From positions 1 through 38,307 of the forward strand of contig CAMEDD010000023.1 of assembly GCA_945913285.1 (NCBI GenBank): a DNA stretch of 38,307 nucleotides. Direction: 5' to 3'. Source of the DNA: Candidatus Sulfopaludibacter sp. SbA3 (GTDB taxonomy: Bacteria > Pseudomonadota > Alphaproteobacteria > Caulobacterales > Hyphomonadaceae). The notes under the pieces were generated by a model, which was not told where the DNA came from, did not search any database, and saw only the letters and a list, made by a program, of their open reading frames with translations. Positions within the stretch are counted from its first letter, which is position 1; every line of letters begins with the position of its first letter. Both the position numbers and the translations under genes were made by a program. Of this stretch, positions 26,126 through 35,810 are shown piece by piece.

Positions 26126-26718
26126 TGCGGTAAGACCTTCCGGACGCGGAGGTAATCGAGCAGAGGCAGAAGCGGCAGGCCGAGGATCGAGAAGTAATCG
26201 CCTTCAATGCTGGAAAAGAGCTGCGACCCGAGGCTTTCCAGCTGGTAGGCGCCGACGGTGGACAGCAGGCTTTGGCCGCAACGATCTACATATCCGTCGA
26301 TGAATTCCGGCGTCAGGTGCCGCATCGTCAGGCGCGGGCGCGCGAGATGACGCCAGACAGGCCGGCCCTCTTCGCAGACAACGATCGCAGTCTCGAGCGT
26401 GTGGCTCTTGCCCGACAGGCGGGTGAGATGGCTGCGGGCTTCGGCGAGGTCGGCCGGTTTGTCGAAGGCCTCGTTGCCGAGGGCCAGCATCTGGTCGCCG
26501 CCGATGACGAGGCCGCCGCGAGCCGAGGATACGCGCACCGCTTTCAGTTCCGCGAGCTGCATGGCCTGGTCGCGAACCGGGACACCTTCGGCGCGCAAGC
26601 TCGTCCGGAACGAGGCTTCATCGACGTTCGGCGCAACGCTTTGTGCGGTGACGCCGGCCGCTGCCAGGAGGGCGCGCCGGCTGGCGCTGCCGGAGGCAAG
26701 CGTGACTTCAAGGCTCAT
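26122..26718 (-). CDS. maf: Maf-family nucleoside triphosphate pyrophosphatase
   Basis: House-cleaning pyrophosphatase that hydrolyses non-canonical or excess nucleoside triphosphates to monophosphates; also called a septum-formation inhibitor. The 198-residue protein opens LASGSASRRALLAAAGV, with the phosphate-binding SxSxRR. It has the base-region GGDQMLALGNEAFDKP and the substrate loop LTRLSGKSHTLETAIVV, then GAYQLESLGSQLF near the end. The set GDQ and KSH suggests the YceF-like subgroup, but this is not certain. The gene is the second of the leftward chain next to the origin. Confidence 0.93.
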   Translation of the reverse strand: MSLEVTLASGSASRRALLAAAGVTAQSVAPNVDEASFRTSLRAEGVPVRDQAMQLAELKAVRVSSARGGLVIGGDQMLALGNEAFDKPADLAEARSHLTRLSGKSHTLETAIVVCEEGRPVWRHLARPRLTMRHLTPEFIDGYVDRCGQSLLSTVGAYQLESLGSQLFSSIEGDYFSILGLPLLPLLDYLRVRKVLPQ

Positions 26719-27557
26719 GCATGGCCCCGGCGTTCATAAAGCAGGTTGAGGATCGCCGCGGCGGTTTCTTCCACCGAACGGCGCGAGACATCAATGGTTT
26801 TCCAGTTGTTGCGCTGGAACAGGCGGTTCGCCTGCGTGATCTCTTCGCGCACCGCTTCTTCATCGGCGTAGTCGCCGGCATCGTCCTGGTTCAGCGACAT
26901 CAGCCGCTGGCGCCGTATCTGGACAAGCCGCTCAGCCGAGATTTTCAGCCCCACAACGAGCGGCCCCTTGTCACCGAGACGTTCGAGAAAGTCCGGCAAA
27001 GGGGCTCCGGGGACGAGCGGAATATTTCCGGCGCGGACTTTCCGGTTGGCGAGATAGACGCAGGTGGGTGTTTTCGACGTGCGGCTGACACCCAGCAAGA
27101 TCACATCGGCGCCAACCAGGCTTTCCATGTTCTGGCCGTCATCGTGCGCGAGGGTGAAGTTGATCGCCTCCATCCGCTCGAAATAGTCCTCGTCCATTGC
27201 GTGCTGGCCGGCGACGCGGTTGTTGGCTGGGACGCCGAGATGGCGGCTGAGCATGGCGATCGAGGGATCGAGCACGGGCAAAGTCGGAATACTGCGCTCT
27301 CGGCAGAAGGCTTCCAGCCGGCCGCGCAGGCCCGCATCCGAGATGGTGTACCAGACGACGCCGGGCGCTGCTTCGATTTCCCGGGTGACCCGCTCAAGCT
27401 GGCGCTCGGAGCGTACCAGGTAGTAGTTGTGCTCGAGCGGCTGGATATTCTCGAACTGGGCGCAAGCTGCCCGCTGCACGGCGTTCAGCGTTTCGCCCGT
27501 CGAGTCCGAGACGAGGTGGACGTTGAAGTAGATGGCGGGCCGGACCGGGCGTGTCAT
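26715..27557 (-). CDS. ppsR: bifunctional kinase/pyrophosphorylase of the PPDK/PEP synthase regulator family (DUF299)
   Basis: Predicted regulator that phosphorylates (ADP- or ATP-dependent) and, by phosphorolysis, dephosphorylates a threonine of pyruvate phosphate dikinase or PEP synthase. The 280-residue protein starts with IYFNVHLVSDSTGETLNA, the family N-terminus, and has the P-loop-like GVSRTSKTPTCVYLANRKV (mid-protein) and the ISAERLVQIRRQRL region. The ATG at 27557 is chosen because the family sequence begins a few residues on; a longer in-frame reading to 27632 would run into the origin motifs and adds unrelated residues. In Caulobacter the equivalent gene also sits directly beside the origin. 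It leads the leftward five-gene chain. Confidence 0.92.
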   Translation of the reverse strand: MTRPVRPAIYFNVHLVSDSTGETLNAVQRAACAQFENIQPLEHNYYLVRSERQLERVTREIEAAPGVVWYTISDAGLRGRLEAFCRERSIPTLPVLDPSIAMLSRHLGVPANNRVAGQHAMDEDYFERMEAINFTLAHDDGQNMESLVGADVILLGVSRTSKTPTCVYLANRKVRAGNIPLVPGAPLPDFLERLGDKGPLVVGLKISAERLVQIRRQRLMSLNQDDAGDYADEEAVREEITQANRLFQRNNWKTIDVSRRSVEETAAAILNLLYERRGHA

Positions 27558-27597
27558 GGTGCTTCTCTTGCCGGGCGTTCCGGCTTTGCACAAGGGT

Positions 27598-27797
27598 TGT
27601 GACTCGCCTGTGAATTGCCTGCCGCTCCACAAGGAGTCACACGGTTTCCACAGGCCTGCGAATCCGACTCCCCGATGATCCCTGCTTGTTCCGCATTGTG
27701 ACTCGGCGCCCGCGTTTACCTAACGTTAACCATTGATCAACGTCAGGAATTCTCCGGCGCGTCCGAATGCCCCTAGCTGTGACTCAGTTGTGGATTT
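27598..27797. repeat. phased TGTGACTC / DnaA-like elements
   Basis: Octamers at 27598-27605 (+), 27634-27641 (-), 27697-27704 (+) and 27778-27785 (+). Three of them have another TGTG element in the same direction one helical turn away: 27598 to TGTGAATTG at 27609 (11 bp); 27778 to TGTGGATTT at 27789 (11 bp); and on the minus strand TGTGGAAAC starting 27652, the octamer at 27641 and TGTGGAGCG at 27631 (11 and 10 bp). Every octamer contains GACTC, a GANTC methylation site. This phasing fits cooperative initiator binding. Confidence 0.7.
27715..27729 (+). promoter_or_regulatory. CtrA-type binding site in the origin
   Basis: TTTA-CCTAACG-TTAA, followed by CCAT, matches the CtrA consensus TTAA-N7-TTAA with one mismatch in the first half. 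The TTAACCAT right half resembles sites in the Caulobacter origin, where CtrA blocks initiation. It lies 11 bp after the third octamer. Confidence 0.6.
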
Positions 27798-27807
27798 TGG
27801 TGGACAA

Positions 27808-27824
27808 GCCCGGATAAACCGGGC
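27808..27824 (+). repeat. short stem-loop between origin elements and hemE
   Basis: GCCCGG-ATAAA-CCGGGC: a 6-bp stem with a 5-nt AT-only loop. No T-tract follows. It may be a leader structure of hemE or part of the origin. Confidence 0.4.
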
Positions 27825-27901
27825 TCTCCAAGAATCCAGCAGCATCATAAGTATAAGCGCCCTCACGGGCTCATTTGAATGGGATTGAAAGGGGTAGAGC
27901 G

Positions 27902-28939
27902 ATGGCCGGCGCCAGCGGGAAGAAATTCTTGGACGTGCTTGCAGGAAAGGCGGTCTCCCCTCCTCCGGTCTGGATGATGCGCCAGGCAGGTCGCCACCTT
28001 CCGGAATACCTCGAAACACGCTCCCGCGCGCGCGACTTCCTTGATTTCTGCTACACGCCGTCCCTCGCCTCAGAGGCAACGCTCCAGCCTGTGCGCCGAT
28101 ACGGCATGGACGCCGCGATCCTGTTTGCTGACATTCTTCTCATCCTCGATGCGATGGGCCTCGATGTTGCGTTTGAGAAGGGCGAGGGCCCGCTGGTGGA
28201 AGTCATTCATTCTGCGTCCGATCTCGCACGGGTTCAGCCGCAGGCCGCAGCTGACAAGCTGTCGCCGGTCTACGAGACGGTGTCGCGTGTCAAAGCGCAG
28301 CTGCCTTCTTCGTGTGCGCTGATCGGTTTTGCGGGATCGCCCTGGACGGTGACGCTTTATGCGGTCGAAGGCCGGGGCAAGACCGACAAGTCGATGGCCT
28401 GGCGCTGGGCGCATGGACGGCCGGATGAACTCGCTGCTGCGATGGATCTCGTGACCGAAGCGACCGCGCACTATCTCGCGCGGCAAGTCGAGGCGGGCGC
28501 TGACGCCCTGATGCTGTTCGACAGCTGGGCGGAGGGCCTTGCTGACAATATCTTCGAGGAAGTGATCATTGCGCCTACGAGGAAGCTGGTCACCCGGCTC
28601 CGGCAAATGGGTGTCATGGTGCCGATCATTGGCTTCCCGCGCGGCGCGGGCGTGATGGTGCCGGCCTATGTGAAGGCCACGGGCGTGACGGGCGTGGGCC
28701 TCGACACGGCCGCGTTGCCCGCGTTCATAAATGCTTCTCTACCCAAAGGATTCCCCGTTCAAGGCCATCTTGATCCGCTGCTGCTGATCGAGGGGGGAGC
28801 GCGTCTTGACGCACGTGTGGACCAGATTCTGGACGCTTACCGGGGTCGGCCCCATATCTTTAATCTTGGGCACGGGGTTCGCCCAGAAACGCCGATCGCA
28901 AATGTCGAGCGCGCGCTGAACCGGATTCGAAAGGGATAA
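27902..28939 (+). CDS. hemE: uroporphyrinogen decarboxylase
   Basis: Decarboxylates uroporphyrinogen III to coproporphyrinogen III in haem synthesis, in the cytoplasm. The 345-residue protein has the signature WMMRQAGRHLPEY (Arg27, Arg31) and FADILLILDAMG with the pyrrole-binding Asp77. It also has GFAGSPWTVTLYAVEG, the DSWAEGL segment and the C-terminal FNLGHGVRPETP with its conserved His. The ATG at 27902 is chosen because AAAGGGG stands 7 bp before it; a TTG 27 bp earlier is in frame but unsupported. It is first of a tight hemE-hemH-hemJ operon (8 and 9 bp gaps), with a leader that lies in the putative origin. Confidence 0.97.
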   Translation: MAGASGKKFLDVLAGKAVSPPPVWMMRQAGRHLPEYLETRSRARDFLDFCYTPSLASEATLQPVRRYGMDAAILFADILLILDAMGLDVAFEKGEGPLVEVIHSASDLARVQPQAAADKLSPVYETVSRVKAQLPSSCALIGFAGSPWTVTLYAVEGRGKTDKSMAWRWAHGRPDELAAAMDLVTEATAHYLARQVEAGADALMLFDSWAEGLADNIFEEVIIAPTRKLVTRLRQMGVMVPIIGFPRGAGVMVPAYVKATGVTGVGLDTAALPAFINASLPKGFPVQGHLDPLLLIEGGARLDARVDQILDAYRGRPHIFNLGHGVRPETPIANVERALNRIRKG

Positions 28940-28947
28940 GTCTGCCC

Positions 28948-30021
28948 ATGGGCCGCAGAATCGCCGTTGTCCTCTTTAACCTCGGCGGTCCGGACAAGCC
29001 CGCGTCCGTGCAGCCCTTTTTGCAGAACCTCTTCCGGGATCCCGCAATCATCCGGGCCCCCCTGCCCTTGCGCTGGTTTCTGGCACGGCTGATTTCGCGC
29101 ACGCGGGCATCGGCAGTGATCAAGAACTATGCGATGATGGATGCTGGCGGGGGCTCGCCGCTGCTGCGCGAAACTGAGGTTCAGGCCAAGGCGCTCGAAG
29201 CGGAGCTGGCGAAACGGCTACCGGACGATGAGGTCAAATGCTTCATTGCGATGCGGTACTGGCATCCCTTCACCGAAGAAGCTGCAGCTGAAGTGAAACG
29301 CTGGCGCGCGGACGGCGTTGTGCTGCTGCCCCTATATCCGCAGTTTTCGACCACGACCACGGGCTCGTCGCTGGAGGCCTGGAAGAAAGCCTTCAACGGC
29401 GCGGCAAAAACAGTGTGCTGCTTCCCGTTCGAGGAAAACTTCGTTTCCGCGCACGTCGACCGCATCCTTGAAGCGCACAAGAGGGCCGGAGCGCCGGAAC
29501 AGGTGACATTACTGTTGTCAGCCCACGGATTGCCTGAACAGGTTGTCCGCGACGGCGACCCCTATCAGTGGCAGTGCGAAACGCTGGCTGAAATGATCGC
29601 CGGCCGGGTGCCTGCACATTGGGAAGTGATCCCCTGTTACCAGTCGCGCGTGGGCCCCCTCAAGTGGATTGGTCCGGCCACGGAAGCTGAAGTCGAGCGC
29701 GCGGCGAACGCGAAAAAGCATATCCTGATTGCGCCGATCGCCTTCGTTTCGGAACATATCGAGACGCTGGTCGAACTTGGCGAAGAATACAGGCTGATCG
29801 CCGAAGCCGATGGCGCGGCGAGCTATACCCGTGTCGAGGCATTGGGTACACATCCCGGCTTCATCCATACACTGGCCCAGGAAACCTTGGCCGCGCTGGA
29901 CATGAATGAGAAAATCCGGTCCTGCGCTGGGGGCAGGCTTTGCCCATCGGGCTGGACGGGGTGCCCGCATGTGGTCACACACCAGAAGGCGGGTGAGCGG
30001 GTCAAGGAACTGGCGGGCTGA
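28948..30021 (+). CDS. hemH: ferrochelatase, probably [2Fe-2S]-containing
   Basis: Inserts Fe2+ into protoporphyrin IX, the last haem step, at the inner membrane. The 357-residue protein starts with the conserved VVLFNLGGPDKP and has the catalytic His193 in SAHGLPEQVV and Glu269 in FVSEHIETLVELG. Cysteines at 157/158 (TVCCFPFEE) and a C-terminal set Cys326, Cys332 and Cys339 (SCAGGRLCPSGWTGCPHV) match in position the cluster ligands described for some bacterial ferrochelatases, so a [2Fe-2S] centre is inferred. It follows hemE by 8 bp and precedes hemJ by 9 bp. Confidence 0.95.
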   Translation: MGRRIAVVLFNLGGPDKPASVQPFLQNLFRDPAIIRAPLPLRWFLARLISRTRASAVIKNYAMMDAGGGSPLLRETEVQAKALEAELAKRLPDDEVKCFIAMRYWHPFTEEAAAEVKRWRADGVVLLPLYPQFSTTTTGSSLEAWKKAFNGAAKTVCCFPFEENFVSAHVDRILEAHKRAGAPEQVTLLLSAHGLPEQVVRDGDPYQWQCETLAEMIAGRVPAHWEVIPCYQSRVGPLKWIGPATEAEVERAANAKKHILIAPIAFVSEHIETLVELGEEYRLIAEADGAASYTRVEALGTHPGFIHTLAQETLAALDMNEKIRSCAGGRLCPSGWTGCPHVVTHQKAGERVKELAG

Positions 30022-33302: not shown

Positions 33303-35168
33303 ATGCCCACCCCGGCCGGCTTTGATGTGATCGTGATCGGCGGCGGCCATGCCGGCTGCGAAGCCGCGGCAGCGTCCGCGCGCTTCGGTGCGCGCACCGC
33401 GCTCGTCACCCACAAGCGATCGACCATCGGCGAGATGAGTTGCAACCCGGCCATCGGCGGCCTCGGCAAGGGGCATCTCGTCCGCGAGATCGATGCCCTC
33501 GACGGCGTCATGGGGCGCATGGCGGACAAGGCGGGCATCCAGTTCCGGATGCTTAACCGTTCGAAGGGTCCCGCCGTCTGGGGCCCCCGCGCGCAGATCG
33601 ACCGGAAGCTCTACCGCGCGGCGATGCAGGCCGAGCTCGCCGCTTATTCAAACCTGACGATCATCGAAGACGGCGCCGAAGACCTGATCCTGGAAAACGG
33701 AACCGTCGCCGGAATCATCGGTTCGACAGGGACCCCCTACCGCGCCGCCAGAGTGGTCATCACTACCGGTACCTTCCTGAAGGGCGTTATTCATATCGGC
33801 GCGAAGCGCATCCCGGCAGGCCGGGTCGGCGAGGCGCCTGCCATCGGATTGTCGGACCGTCTGTATGCGCTCGGCCTTCCGATGGGTCGCCTCAAGACCG
33901 GCACGCCTGCGCGTCTCGACGGGCGGACGATCCATTGGGACCGTCTCGAGATGCAGCCCGCCGATGACGCGCCGATCCCGTTCAGTTTCCTGACGGACCG
34001 GATTGATGTTCCCCAGGTCGCGTGCGCCATCACCTGGACGACGCCCGAGACCCATGCGATCATCGACGCAAACCTCTGCCAGTCGGCGGTCTATTCGGGA
34101 GCGATCGCAGGACGGGGCCCCCGCTATTGCCCATCGATCGAAGACAAGGTGCATCGCTTCGCAGACCGCGACCGGCATCAGATCTTCCTCGAGCCGGAAG
34201 GCCTGGATGATCACACGGTCTATCCGAATGGTATCTCGACCTCCCTTCCGGAAGAGATCCAGGACCAGTTCATCCGGACCATTCCGGGCCTCGAGGATGT
34301 GGTGATCCTCCAACATGCCTATGCCATCGAGTATGACTATGTAGACCCGCGTGCACTTTCGCCGGCGCTCGAAGTGAAAGCCATGCCGGGCCTGTATCTC
34401 GCCGGCCAGATCAACGGGACGACCGGATATGAAGAGGCGGCTGCCCAGGGACTGATGGCGGGATTGAACGCGGCCCGCTGCGCCGCTGGAAAAGACGCGG
34501 TCATCTTCGACCGCGCGCAAGCCTATATCGGCGTCCTGATTGACGATCTCGTCACCCGCGGTGTGACGGAGCCGTATCGCATGTTTACATCGCGTGCCGA
34601 ATACCGCCTCGCCCTACGCGCCGATAACGCTGATCAGCGGCTGACCTCTGGTGGGATTGAAGCCGGTGTGGTCGGCCCGGACCGGGCGGCGATGTTTCAC
34701 GTGAAACATCGCGCACTCGAAGAGGCCCGCGCACAGCTCAAACGTCTGACTCTGTCCCCGGCCGCAGCGGTGAAAGCCGGATGGGCGATCAATCAGGATG
34801 GCCGGGTCCGGTCAGCCTGGGAGTATCTGGCCTACAAGGACATCACGTTGAGCCATCTCCGCCAGGTCTGGCCAGAGTTGGTCGCGATCCAGGACGAGAT
34901 CGGCGCCCAGATAGAAATCGAAGCCCTCTATGCCGCATATATTAACCGCCAGTCGGAAGACGTCGCCGCTCTGCGCCGCGACGAGTCGCTGACACTCCCG
35001 GGCGACCTCGACTATGATGCCATCGGTGGGCTTTCGAACGAGGTCCGTTCGAAACTCAAGACCGTCCGGCCGATCACGCTCGGGCAGGCGGCACGCATTG
35101 AAGGCATCACGCCCGGGGCCTTGACCGCGCTTCTCGGCTACGTGAAACGCGTCCGACGCACAGGCTAG
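33303..35168 (+). CDS. mnmG: tRNA uridine-34 carboxymethylaminomethyl enzyme MnmG (GidA)
   Basis: FAD-dependent partner of MnmE. The 621-residue protein starts with the FAD motif [14 protein letters not shown] (13-18 core). It has [24 protein letters not shown], the [10 protein letters not shown] segment, [37 protein letters not shown] and the C-terminal helical domain ending [13 protein letters not shown] 24-bp palindrome at 34689-34712 (parS) is embedded in the coding sequence and encodes AMFHVKHR in a variable loop. The ATG at 33303 is the family start. Confidence 0.98.
34693..34708. promoter_or_regulatory. parS site 1 (inside mnmG)
   Basis: A perfect TGTTTCACGTGAAACA, the bacterial parS consensus bound by ParB. 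Symmetry extends to 24 bp (34689-34712). It lies about 7 kb from the putative origin and 2 kb before parB, as expected of a centromere-like site. Confidence 0.95.
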
Positions 35169-35186: not shown

Positions 35187-35810
35187 ATGACAAGTATGGA
35201 CGACCGCGCGGCCTTCCTCGCCGCTCATGATGTTTCACGTGAAACATTGGCAAGGCTCGACACCGTGATTGCGACCCTCGACGACTGGCGCACGCGGAGC
35301 AATCTGATCGGTCCGAAGGAGTGGCCGCAGATCTGGACGCGGCATGTCGGGGACTCGGCCCAGTTGCTCGACCGGATTCCCGATACGGCCCGTGTGGTCG
35401 ATCTCGGATCGGGGGCGGGCTTTCCCGGATTGATTCTCGCGGCCGCCCGTCCGGCGGGACATGTGACCATGATCGAGAGCATCGGAAAAAAATGTGCGTT
35501 CCTTCGCGCAGCCATTTCGGCAGCCGATTTGCCAGCTGAGGTCTGGCAAGGGCGGGTTGAGGCGGCGCCCCCGATCGCCGCGTCCTATGTCACGGCCCGG
35601 GCATTTGCCCCGCTGCCGGCACTGATGAATTATGCCGCGCCTTGGCTGCTGAAAGGCGCGACAGGGGTTTTCCCGAAAGGCGAACGCTGGAAAGAAGAAT
35701 TGACGTCAGCCCAGCAAAAGTGGAGTTTCGCTTATCAAGCGATTCCAAGTCGCATCGGTGGTGACGGGGTCATTTTAATCGTCAGGGAAGCGGCACATCG
35801 TCATGGCTAA
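35187..35810 (+). CDS. rsmG: 16S rRNA (guanine-N7) methyltransferase RsmG (GidB)
   Basis: Methylates G527 of 16S rRNA using SAM; loss gives low-level streptomycin resistance. The 207-residue protein has WRTRSNLIGPKEWPQIWTRHVGDSAQL, cut here by its helices, then the SAM motif VVDLGSGAGFPGLILA and the MIESIGKKCAFLR post-I region. The parS palindrome at 35231-35246 encodes DVSRETL near the N-terminus, a sequence known from many RsmG proteins. ATG 35187 follows AGGA; ATG 35196 is possible. It follows mnmG by 18 bp and overlaps parA by 8 bp. Confidence 0.96.
   Translation: MTSMDDRAAFLAAHDVSRETLARLDTVIATLDDWRTRSNLIGPKEWPQIWTRHVGDSAQLLDRIPDTARVVDLGSGAGFPGLILAAARPAGHVTMIESIGKKCAFLRAAISAADLPAEVWQGRVEAAPPIAASYVTARAFAPLPALMNYAAPWLLKGATGVFPKGERWKEELTSAQQKWSFAYQAIPSRIGGDGVILIVREAAHRHG
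35231..35246. promoter_or_regulatory. parS site 2 (inside rsmG)
   Basis: A second perfect TGTTTCACGTGAAACA (18-bp symmetry with flanking A/T), 538 bp from the first. It is read in a different codon phase from site 1: it encodes DVSRETL here and MFHVKH in mnmG. Confidence 0.95.

Follow-up and report, generated by a model that had tools for sequence, protein, structure and literature searches.

The intergenic region upstream of hemE in a Hyphomonas species carries an array of composite boxes, in which a TGTG core of DnaA-box type overlaps a GANTC site, the target of the CcrM methyltransferase. The composite, TGTGANTC, recurs at the same slots in the corresponding region of nearly all Hyphomonas genomes studied. 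The boxes are predicted to be low-affinity initiator boxes with built-in methylation sites, and the methylation state may act on initiator loading.

Composite boxes in a candidate replication origin

The window, that is, the whole stretch of DNA analysed (38,307 nucleotides), was scanned for the octamer TGTGACTC. Four copies are present, at 27598–27605 (+), 27634–27641 (-), 27697–27704 (+), and 27778–27785 (+), without a fifth anywhere in the window. They span 188 bp, and the coordinates agree with the sequence-only reading of this DNA, which had reported four identical octamers, each holding GACTC, within that distance. We refer to the copies as boxes A, B1, C, and D, respectively.

All four lie in the intergenic region 27558–27902, bounded by the minus-strand ATG of PPSR at 27557 (NCBIfam NF003742) and by the ATG of hemE at 27903 (TIGR01464; the ORF finder starts hemE at a TTG at 27875). 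This arrangement, with parAB nearby and the segment flanked by hemE and a PPSR-type gene, is the origin setting of Caulobacter type, and the PPSR/hemE intergenic region is the place of the Caulobacter origin. In the window, parA, parB, maf, hemH, rho, mnmE, mnmG, and rsmG were read by eye from translations. Gene context supports the octamer site as a candidate for the chromosome origin region of a Hyphomonas species. hemE flanks ori in C. crescentus, and the H. neptunium origin, from which replication initiates once per division cycle, was mapped close to hemE by marker frequency (PMC6650430).

Further elements surround the four octamers. Upstream of box A, the sequence CACAAG (27589–27594), a minus-strand TGTG, is invariant in the aligned species described below. 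Box A is followed by box A2, TGTGAATTG (27609–27617, +), in which the run of TGTG columns is invariant; the form TGTGAATT at 27609 is a variant, and relatives often have TGTGGATA or TGTGGAAT instead. Judged by sequence only, TCCACAAG (27626–27633, -) is a further DnaA-core-like element. Box B1 is accompanied by box B2, GTTTCCACA (27644–27652, -), which has the DnaA-core form here, and box D by the DnaA-box-like D2, TGTGGATTT (27789–27797, +), with an invariant TGTGGA run. The sequence-only reading had paired three octamers with another TGTG element in the same direction at 10–11 bp. Three same-strand TGTG pairs are indeed present (27598/27609, +; 27778/27789, +; 27638/27649, -); the range falls away, as all are exactly 11 bp apart.

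Between boxes C and D, TTTACCTAACGTTAACC (27715–27731) contains CtrA-like half sites in the form TTTA-N7-TTAA, and its TTAA run is invariant in the aligned species. The CtrA motif is TTAA-N7-TTAA (PMC4285127), and in H. neptunium a CtrA ChIP site adjoins ori (PMC7200025).

GANTC sites also occur outside TGTG boxes. GAATC and GACTC, 6 bp apart, are located at 27660–27670, where GANTC is found in 29/40 and 33/40 aligned species, and a single GAATC at 27832–27836. Tandem pairs of GANTC, spaced 5–6 bp and not within a TGTG box, are seen repeatedly among the representatives printed for several genera, with the form GAATCCGACTC in the window and GACTCGACTC in G073, G093, G107, G115, and G120. Directly before hemE, the block TATAAGCGCCCTnACGGGC (27852–27870) is strongly conserved in Hyphomonas and may be a promoter, an unwinding element, or a hairpin.

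A promoter and terminator scan gave a single promoter-like match, on the minus strand, and no terminator. No RNA element was identified in an Rfam scan of 26500–29000, which returned no match at the gathering score. Two parS-like palindromes (GATGTTTCACGTGAAACAT) lie at 34691–34710 and 35229–35248, within the mnmG and rsmG frames and upstream of parAB.

Array density and genome-wide frequency

The octamer cluster exceeds chance expectations. Four or more copies of TGTGACTC were found in none of 100 shuffles of the whole window (mean 0.69). Dinucleotide shuffling of the segment 27557–27874 (318 bp) gave the same picture for its parts: none of 5000 shuffles reached the observed seven GANTC sites, the four TGTGANTC, or the three same-strand TGTG pairs at 11 bp, and two of 5000 matched the nine TGTG/CACA. 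GANTC occurs 1.28 times per kb across a 400 kb genome sample, versus 8 times in 455 bp at the origin.

The genome from which the window derives (G000) is a draft of 3,022,554 bases in 98 contigs. It holds six copies of TGTGACTC, four of them at the origin locus, so the objection that the octamer might simply be common genome-wide does not hold. Of the two others, one, at C39:10732, falls within a long open frame, and one is at C63:2855. A strong genome-wide depletion of the octamer was considered as well and rejected as weak: outside the origin there are two copies, compared with 5.7 expected for the genome from a fourth-order Markov model of the 400 kb sample, and the depletion is overstated by the 30 copies of the reversed-pattern control. 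In addition, genomes of other Hyphomonas species hold between 3 and 31 copies (42 genomes). The maximal-order Markov estimate is 0.17 per 400 kb, at sparse counts. The composite TGTGANTC is not rare, with 55 copies in the genome, four of them at the origin, and 63 for the reversed control. What stands out is therefore the clustering of TGTGANTC rather than its frequency. No TGTGANTC was found at the dnaA and gcrA loci of the same genome (L188, L324).

Conservation among Hyphomonas origins

For comparison, hemE was searched in 105 genomes of the same family and matched in 103 (G041 and G106 gave no match), and the region upstream of hemE was read in 119 genomes, including 16 from other families of the order. 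Upstream sequence is available in 41 of 42 Hyphomonas genomes; G011, with 77 bp before hemE, was excluded from site counts, and G038 (197 bp) and G113 (268 bp) are covered over less than 455 bp. All 41 regions were aligned, and G090 was dropped from slot and tree counts, leaving 40 species. In the latter genome (contig C18, locus L071) slot D alone is recognisable upstream of hemE, and the sequence farther upstream is unalignable, indicating rearrangement or misassembly.

At least one TGTGANTC is present in 41/41 Hyphomonas hemE upstream regions and at least three in 40/41, and absence from the origins of relatives is thus no argument against the motif. The alignment defines five slots, A, B1, B2, C, and D, in which TGTG is retained in all 200 cells. 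The composite form is found in all 40 species at B1, in 39 at C, 38 at D, 34 at A, and 16 at B2, and GANTC is correspondingly missing in 1 species at C, 2 at D, 6 at A, and 24 at B2. In slot A the six species that lost GANTC kept TGTG. Slot B2 is occupied by TGTGANTC in 16 species, TGTGGA in 13, TGTGGG in 9, and other TGTG sequences in 2. Judged from this distribution, GANTC is dispensable at single slots.

The exact octamer, proposed as the unit by the sequence-only reading, is present four times in the window as described and was rejected as the motif: its middle base can be any of four in Hyphomonas relatives, and TGTGANTC is the unit that is conserved. In slot B1, N is A in 15 species, C in 9, T in 9, and G in 7.

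Changes at the composite were counted by parsimony on a hemE tree (FastTree, 81 genomes); as the tree rests on one gene, the counts are approximate. Summed over B1, C, and D, the positions T, G, T, G, and A show no changes each, N shows 14, the following T none, and the final C three, while the six positions flanking the core show 9–21 changes. The 316 intergenic columns average 3.22 changes per column, or about 9.7 for three, and 95 of them are invariant. Invariant columns form 12 runs of four or more, nine of which are TGTG, CACA, or TTAA. GANTC recognition sites are characterised by an N that varies freely between constant GA and TC, and the slots show this CcrM-site constraint. This pattern makes it very probable that GANTC is under selection inside the boxes.

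The register of the two motifs is also distinctive. In the 42 Hyphomonas genomes, 168 GANTC sites begin three bases into TGTG, compared with 9.9 expected, in genomes that are related and not independent. Another 90 GANTC at offset -8 from TGTG appear, in our reading, to be mostly the same sites measured from the partner box. The commonest same-strand TGTG spacing is 11 bp, with 121 cases in Hyphomonas and 56 in the 61 other genomes of the family.

In one origin (G079; L073, L225) N is G in all five composite boxes, where relatives mix bases. Post-hoc permutation gave p 0.008 for the five-G pattern and p 0.035 for identical pairs, using 15 hand-made lineages. N may therefore not be wholly free, and a trans-acting protein could be reading it.

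Distribution in sister genera and beyond the family

In the 61 other genomes of the same family, TGTGANTC occurs once or twice before hemE in 10 and is missing from 51. None was found upstream of hemE in the 16 genomes from other families of the order, which is weak evidence of absence because the chance expectation is only 0.4. A wider survey, for arrays outside the family, covered 59 (L224–L282) of 80 named loci. Among these 59, at least three TGTGANTC are present only in L224 and L225, which are Hyphomonas contigs; the composite was also detected in L226, and once or twice in L238, L249, L253, L261, and L265.

Box pairs are distributed more widely than the composites. Inspection for pairs covered 8 of 29 g13, 7 of 14 g20, and 5 of 42 g1 genomes; the 5' member was allowed to be T[GA]NG where the 3' member was TGTGG, and slots were assigned from their location and spacing, without alignment. 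Pairs spaced by 11 bp were found in g13 at about -271 to -292 (8/8 genomes inspected) and about -104 to -114 (5/8), and in g17 at about -287 to -296 and -111 to -119 (7/7 at both). The 5' member of the second g13 pair is TATGGA or TGGGGA, not TGTG, and sister genera often have a sequence other than TGTG as the 5' member of the D pair (TATGGACAG, TGGGGATTG). Composites are absent from the 29 g13 genomes except for one site. GANTC sites in these genomes occur at offsets 5, 10, and 11 from TGTG 11, 8, and 14 times, against 2.3 expected, an arrangement unlike that of Hyphomonas. In 11 of 14 g20 genomes (e.g. L132, L117, L115), 10–15 GANTC are present in the 455 bp before hemE, with at most one TGTGANTC each.

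Partial arrays were observed in several genera. The single g16 genome, whose hemE has the highest identity outside Hyphomonas (70%), carries B1 and D. One B1-like site is present in 2/3 g19 and 5/14 g20 genomes, g15 has one near -111, and g12 none. On the hemE tree g19 adjoins Hyphomonas and g16 groups with g12; therefore, a stepwise gain of the array would need some loss or repeated gain.

Relation to DnaA boxes

The E. coli DnaA box consensus is TTATnCACA; its TnCACA part is read through the major groove, by the recognition helix, and its TTA part through the minor groove, by Arg399 (PMC5742627). Position 5 is immaterial to the DnaA proteins of E. coli and M. tuberculosis (PMC5043019). Read on the opposite strand, the composite is nGANTCACA. 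The CACA/TGTG core of a DnaA box is kept in each slot of each aligned species. A full match to TTATnCACA or to the Caulobacter G-box TGATCCACA is not found, since position 4 is free and position 2 is G. The affinity of the composite for DnaA is probably low because position 4 is free; boxes A, C, and D should be poor DnaA sites, as E. coli DnaA reads T at position 4 and C is the commonest base there on the TGTG strand.

Slots in relatives are occupied by DnaA-box-like sequences spaced as a 9-mer plus 2 bp, and the 11 bp pairing fits this layout, comparable to the E. coli array, in which boxes are 2–4 bp apart (PMC5742627). Taken together, slots and sequences make it likely that these are initiator boxes, as predicted. 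The proposal of the sequence-only reading, methylation sites placed in initiator-like elements, holds for what can be read in the DNA, i.e. the origin location, the box-like slots, the selection on GANTC, and the 11 bp phasing.

The DnaA proteins themselves differ at one residue that may be relevant. In an alignment of 21 DnaA sequences, numbered by our own count and leaving out G103 (DnaA frame not found) and G042 (domain fragment), the residue aligned with Arg399 is Lys in all eight Hyphomonas proteins, in g13 (2/2) and g16 (1/1), and in G027 from another family. It is Arg in g14, g15, g17, g18, g20, G025, and G026. Chain 3pvp also aligns a Lys at this place. Lys here could relax reading on the TTA side; its role is at most permissive because composites are almost absent from g13, which also has Lys. 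The DnaA of the studied genome falls below the NCBIfam cut-off of 343.9, with a score of 307.6 bits.

No clear origin emerged in H. neptunium from a published search for DnaA sites (PMC6650430). Such an outcome is expected if most boxes are non-canonical, and the boxes described here offer a reason for it.

CcrM and GcrA

The RAMA domain, presumably the C-terminal domain of CcrM, was detected in all 23 genomes searched and in one of 14 control genomes (Caulobacter). The CcrM frame with the RAMA domain is truncated at a contig edge in the studied genome, and full-length CcrM was read in G003 and G019 of the same genus. The G019 protein matches the CcrMI structure 6pbd at 7.7e-161 and scores 615 bits with the NCBIfam CcrM model, below its cut-off of 830. 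GcrA, which acts at methylated GANTC promoters (PMC7987155, PMC8116508), is present in the studied genome.

Control of initiation by CcrM in alphaproteobacteria is disputed. A 2008 model for Caulobacter requires a fully methylated origin (PMC2217572), versus normal initiation control after loss of ccrM (PMC3973325). Over-expression of CcrM in Caulobacter was reported to yield extra chromosome copies, which leans opposite to the deletion result (PMC3973325). CcrM depletion in Agrobacterium causes no obvious change at ori1 (PMC11514494). The Caulobacter and Agrobacterium ori1 results are evidence against a general involvement of CcrM in initiation that depends on DnaA. Hyphomonas has methyl targets inside initiator-like boxes and 51 of 61 sister-genus genomes lack them, and this difference therefore offers a matched comparison on CcrM control.

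Comparison with known systems

Methylation sites over weak DnaA boxes are already known from E. coli, and the GANTC form in Hyphomonas would be a variant of that arrangement. In E. coli oriC, GATC overlaps the weak DnaA boxes R5, I2, I3, tau1, and tau2, which are blocked by SeqA (PMC4285127). Shared features, as predicted for Hyphomonas, are adenine methylation sites overlapping weak initiator boxes in close arrays, and hemimethylation following replication. The systems differ in the site and enzyme (GATC and Dam, as opposed to GANTC and CcrM), in lineage, and in the single register inside every composite box, which is a Hyphomonas feature. Sequestration by SeqA is described as confined to a small number of proteobacteria that carry Dam (PMC4285127).

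The Caulobacter origin, Cori, contains G-boxes, W-boxes (TCCCCA), CtrA sites, and GANTC sites (PMC4468827, PMC4285127, PMC3973325). Like the region studied here, it has a hemE flank and several GANTC; its weak DnaA boxes and CtrA-type TTAA sites have putative counterparts in the composite boxes and the CtrA-like TTTA-N7-TTAA half sites. G2, A3, and CACA are common to the composite and the G-box. In contrast to the composite, the G-box sequence is without GANTC, and initiation control there is normal after CcrM loss. The box of Helicobacter and other Epsilonproteobacteria, with the core TTCAC (GTGAA on the opposite strand), is a genuine DnaA box with a TGTGA-type core, but T at position 4 is conserved there, whereas the matching base is free in Hyphomonas (PMC5043019). 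Promoters controlled by GcrA and CcrM (YGAKTCK, PMC7987155) would share a methylation-sensitive readout of GANTC with the Hyphomonas boxes, for which it is a prediction; the latter differ in forming an origin box array.

The sequence-only reading knew of no named origin motif of this composite form, and none was found in the literature searched, to which subscription papers mostly do not belong. Accessible passages of PMC6090056, PMC2217572, and PMC8959179 do not describe GANTC inside DnaA boxes, and the passages searched on Cori mention none within its DnaA boxes. Matches listed in a literature search by the octamer letters were unrelated.

A proposed mechanism and its alternatives

We propose that TGTGANTC boxes are low-affinity DnaA boxes, each with a built-in CcrM site, and that their methylation state acts on initiator loading; as a whole, this prediction seems to us somewhat better than an even bet. 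A change of C to T at position 5, which is hardly read by E. coli DnaA, would create GANTC, position 4 becoming free as well. With three box pairs at 11 bp, a 9-mer plus 2 bp, neighbouring DnaA molecules could load next to each other. Before initiation the boxes would be fully methylated, and passage of the fork would produce two hemimethylated copies. Absence of a methyl group, or its presence on one side only, in the groove read by the recognition helix could then lower or alter DnaA loading on weak boxes, and loading would stay altered until the late-cycle action of CcrM, providing a brake on re-initiation without a SeqA-like protein. DnaA binding, methylation of the box sites, and the direction of the effect are all inferred; whether the loading of DnaA responds to methylation we regard as roughly balanced, leaning slightly to yes. 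The same boxes could signal whether origin DNA is newly copied.

The most serious alternative, although unlikely, is that TGTGANTC is read by a protein other than DnaA, such as a methylation-sensing regulator or a stand-alone DnaA-domain-IV protein, that competes with DnaA or helps it. The departure of the composite from the DnaA consensus at position 4 is in line with such a reader, and so are short frames that consist of DnaA domain IV alone (88–185 aa, most 114–146), listed in 31 of 42 Hyphomonas genomes; examples are G016:C1:752044, G003:C1:412898, and G078:C1:37739. However, a frame of this kind is not listed in the other 11, including G000, G001, and G014, which carry the same boxes. DnaA-core sequences can also replace the composite in its slots, where the 11 bp spacing is retained.

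A rather improbable explanation gives the GANTC sites a role in transcription, controlled by GcrA and CcrM, of hemE, PPSR, or an origin small RNA, with the overlap with TGTG being secondary. GcrA is encoded in the genome and acts at methylated promoters, as noted, and transcription of hemE is described as important for Caulobacter replication (PMC8959179). A GcrA promoter reading of the boxes was nevertheless rejected, as YGAKTCK, on either strand, fits none of the four sites here and 14 of 167 composite sites in the 40 species. It would also leave unexplained the constant TGTG before GANTC and the TGTG partner at 11 bp.

We give slightly less credit still to the case in which the DnaA boxes are real and GANTC provides only methyl marks that are read elsewhere, e.g. 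by nucleoid proteins, without an effect on DnaA. Genera rich in GANTC without the TGTG overlap, as in g20, and the tandem GANTC pair in representatives of several genera would suit this explanation, but it does not account for the favoured register inside the TGTG box in Hyphomonas (168 vs 9.9). Chance or shared ancestry alone, with the octamers as unselected leftovers, is very improbable: the region is shared by descent and 95 of its 316 columns are invariant, yet at B1, C, and D the N changed 14 times next to a GA and a T that never did and a C that did so three times, and shuffles fall short of the observed counts.

Returning to DnaA boxes with a built-in CcrM site, a far more speculative extension concerns the two sister origins. 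Because the box is asymmetric, hemimethylation would yield two chemically different boxes, depending on whether the TGTGA strand or the GANTCACA strand bears the methyl group. Boxes A, C, and D are oriented one way and B1 and B2 the opposite way in the 40 aligned species. Replication of such boxes would give opposite patterns on the sister origins and possibly unequal initiator loading, which we hold to be a long shot. If true, sister asymmetry in a budding, asymmetrically dividing bacterium would amount to a DNA-encoded staggered firing of sister origins.

Elsewhere in the genome, TGTGAATC/GATTCACA were observed in close or inverted pairs, on contigs C44, C62, C77, C78, and C79 and at C52:20887–20924. 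Several of these pairs are positioned at contig ends, and their pattern resembles that of a dispersed repeat.
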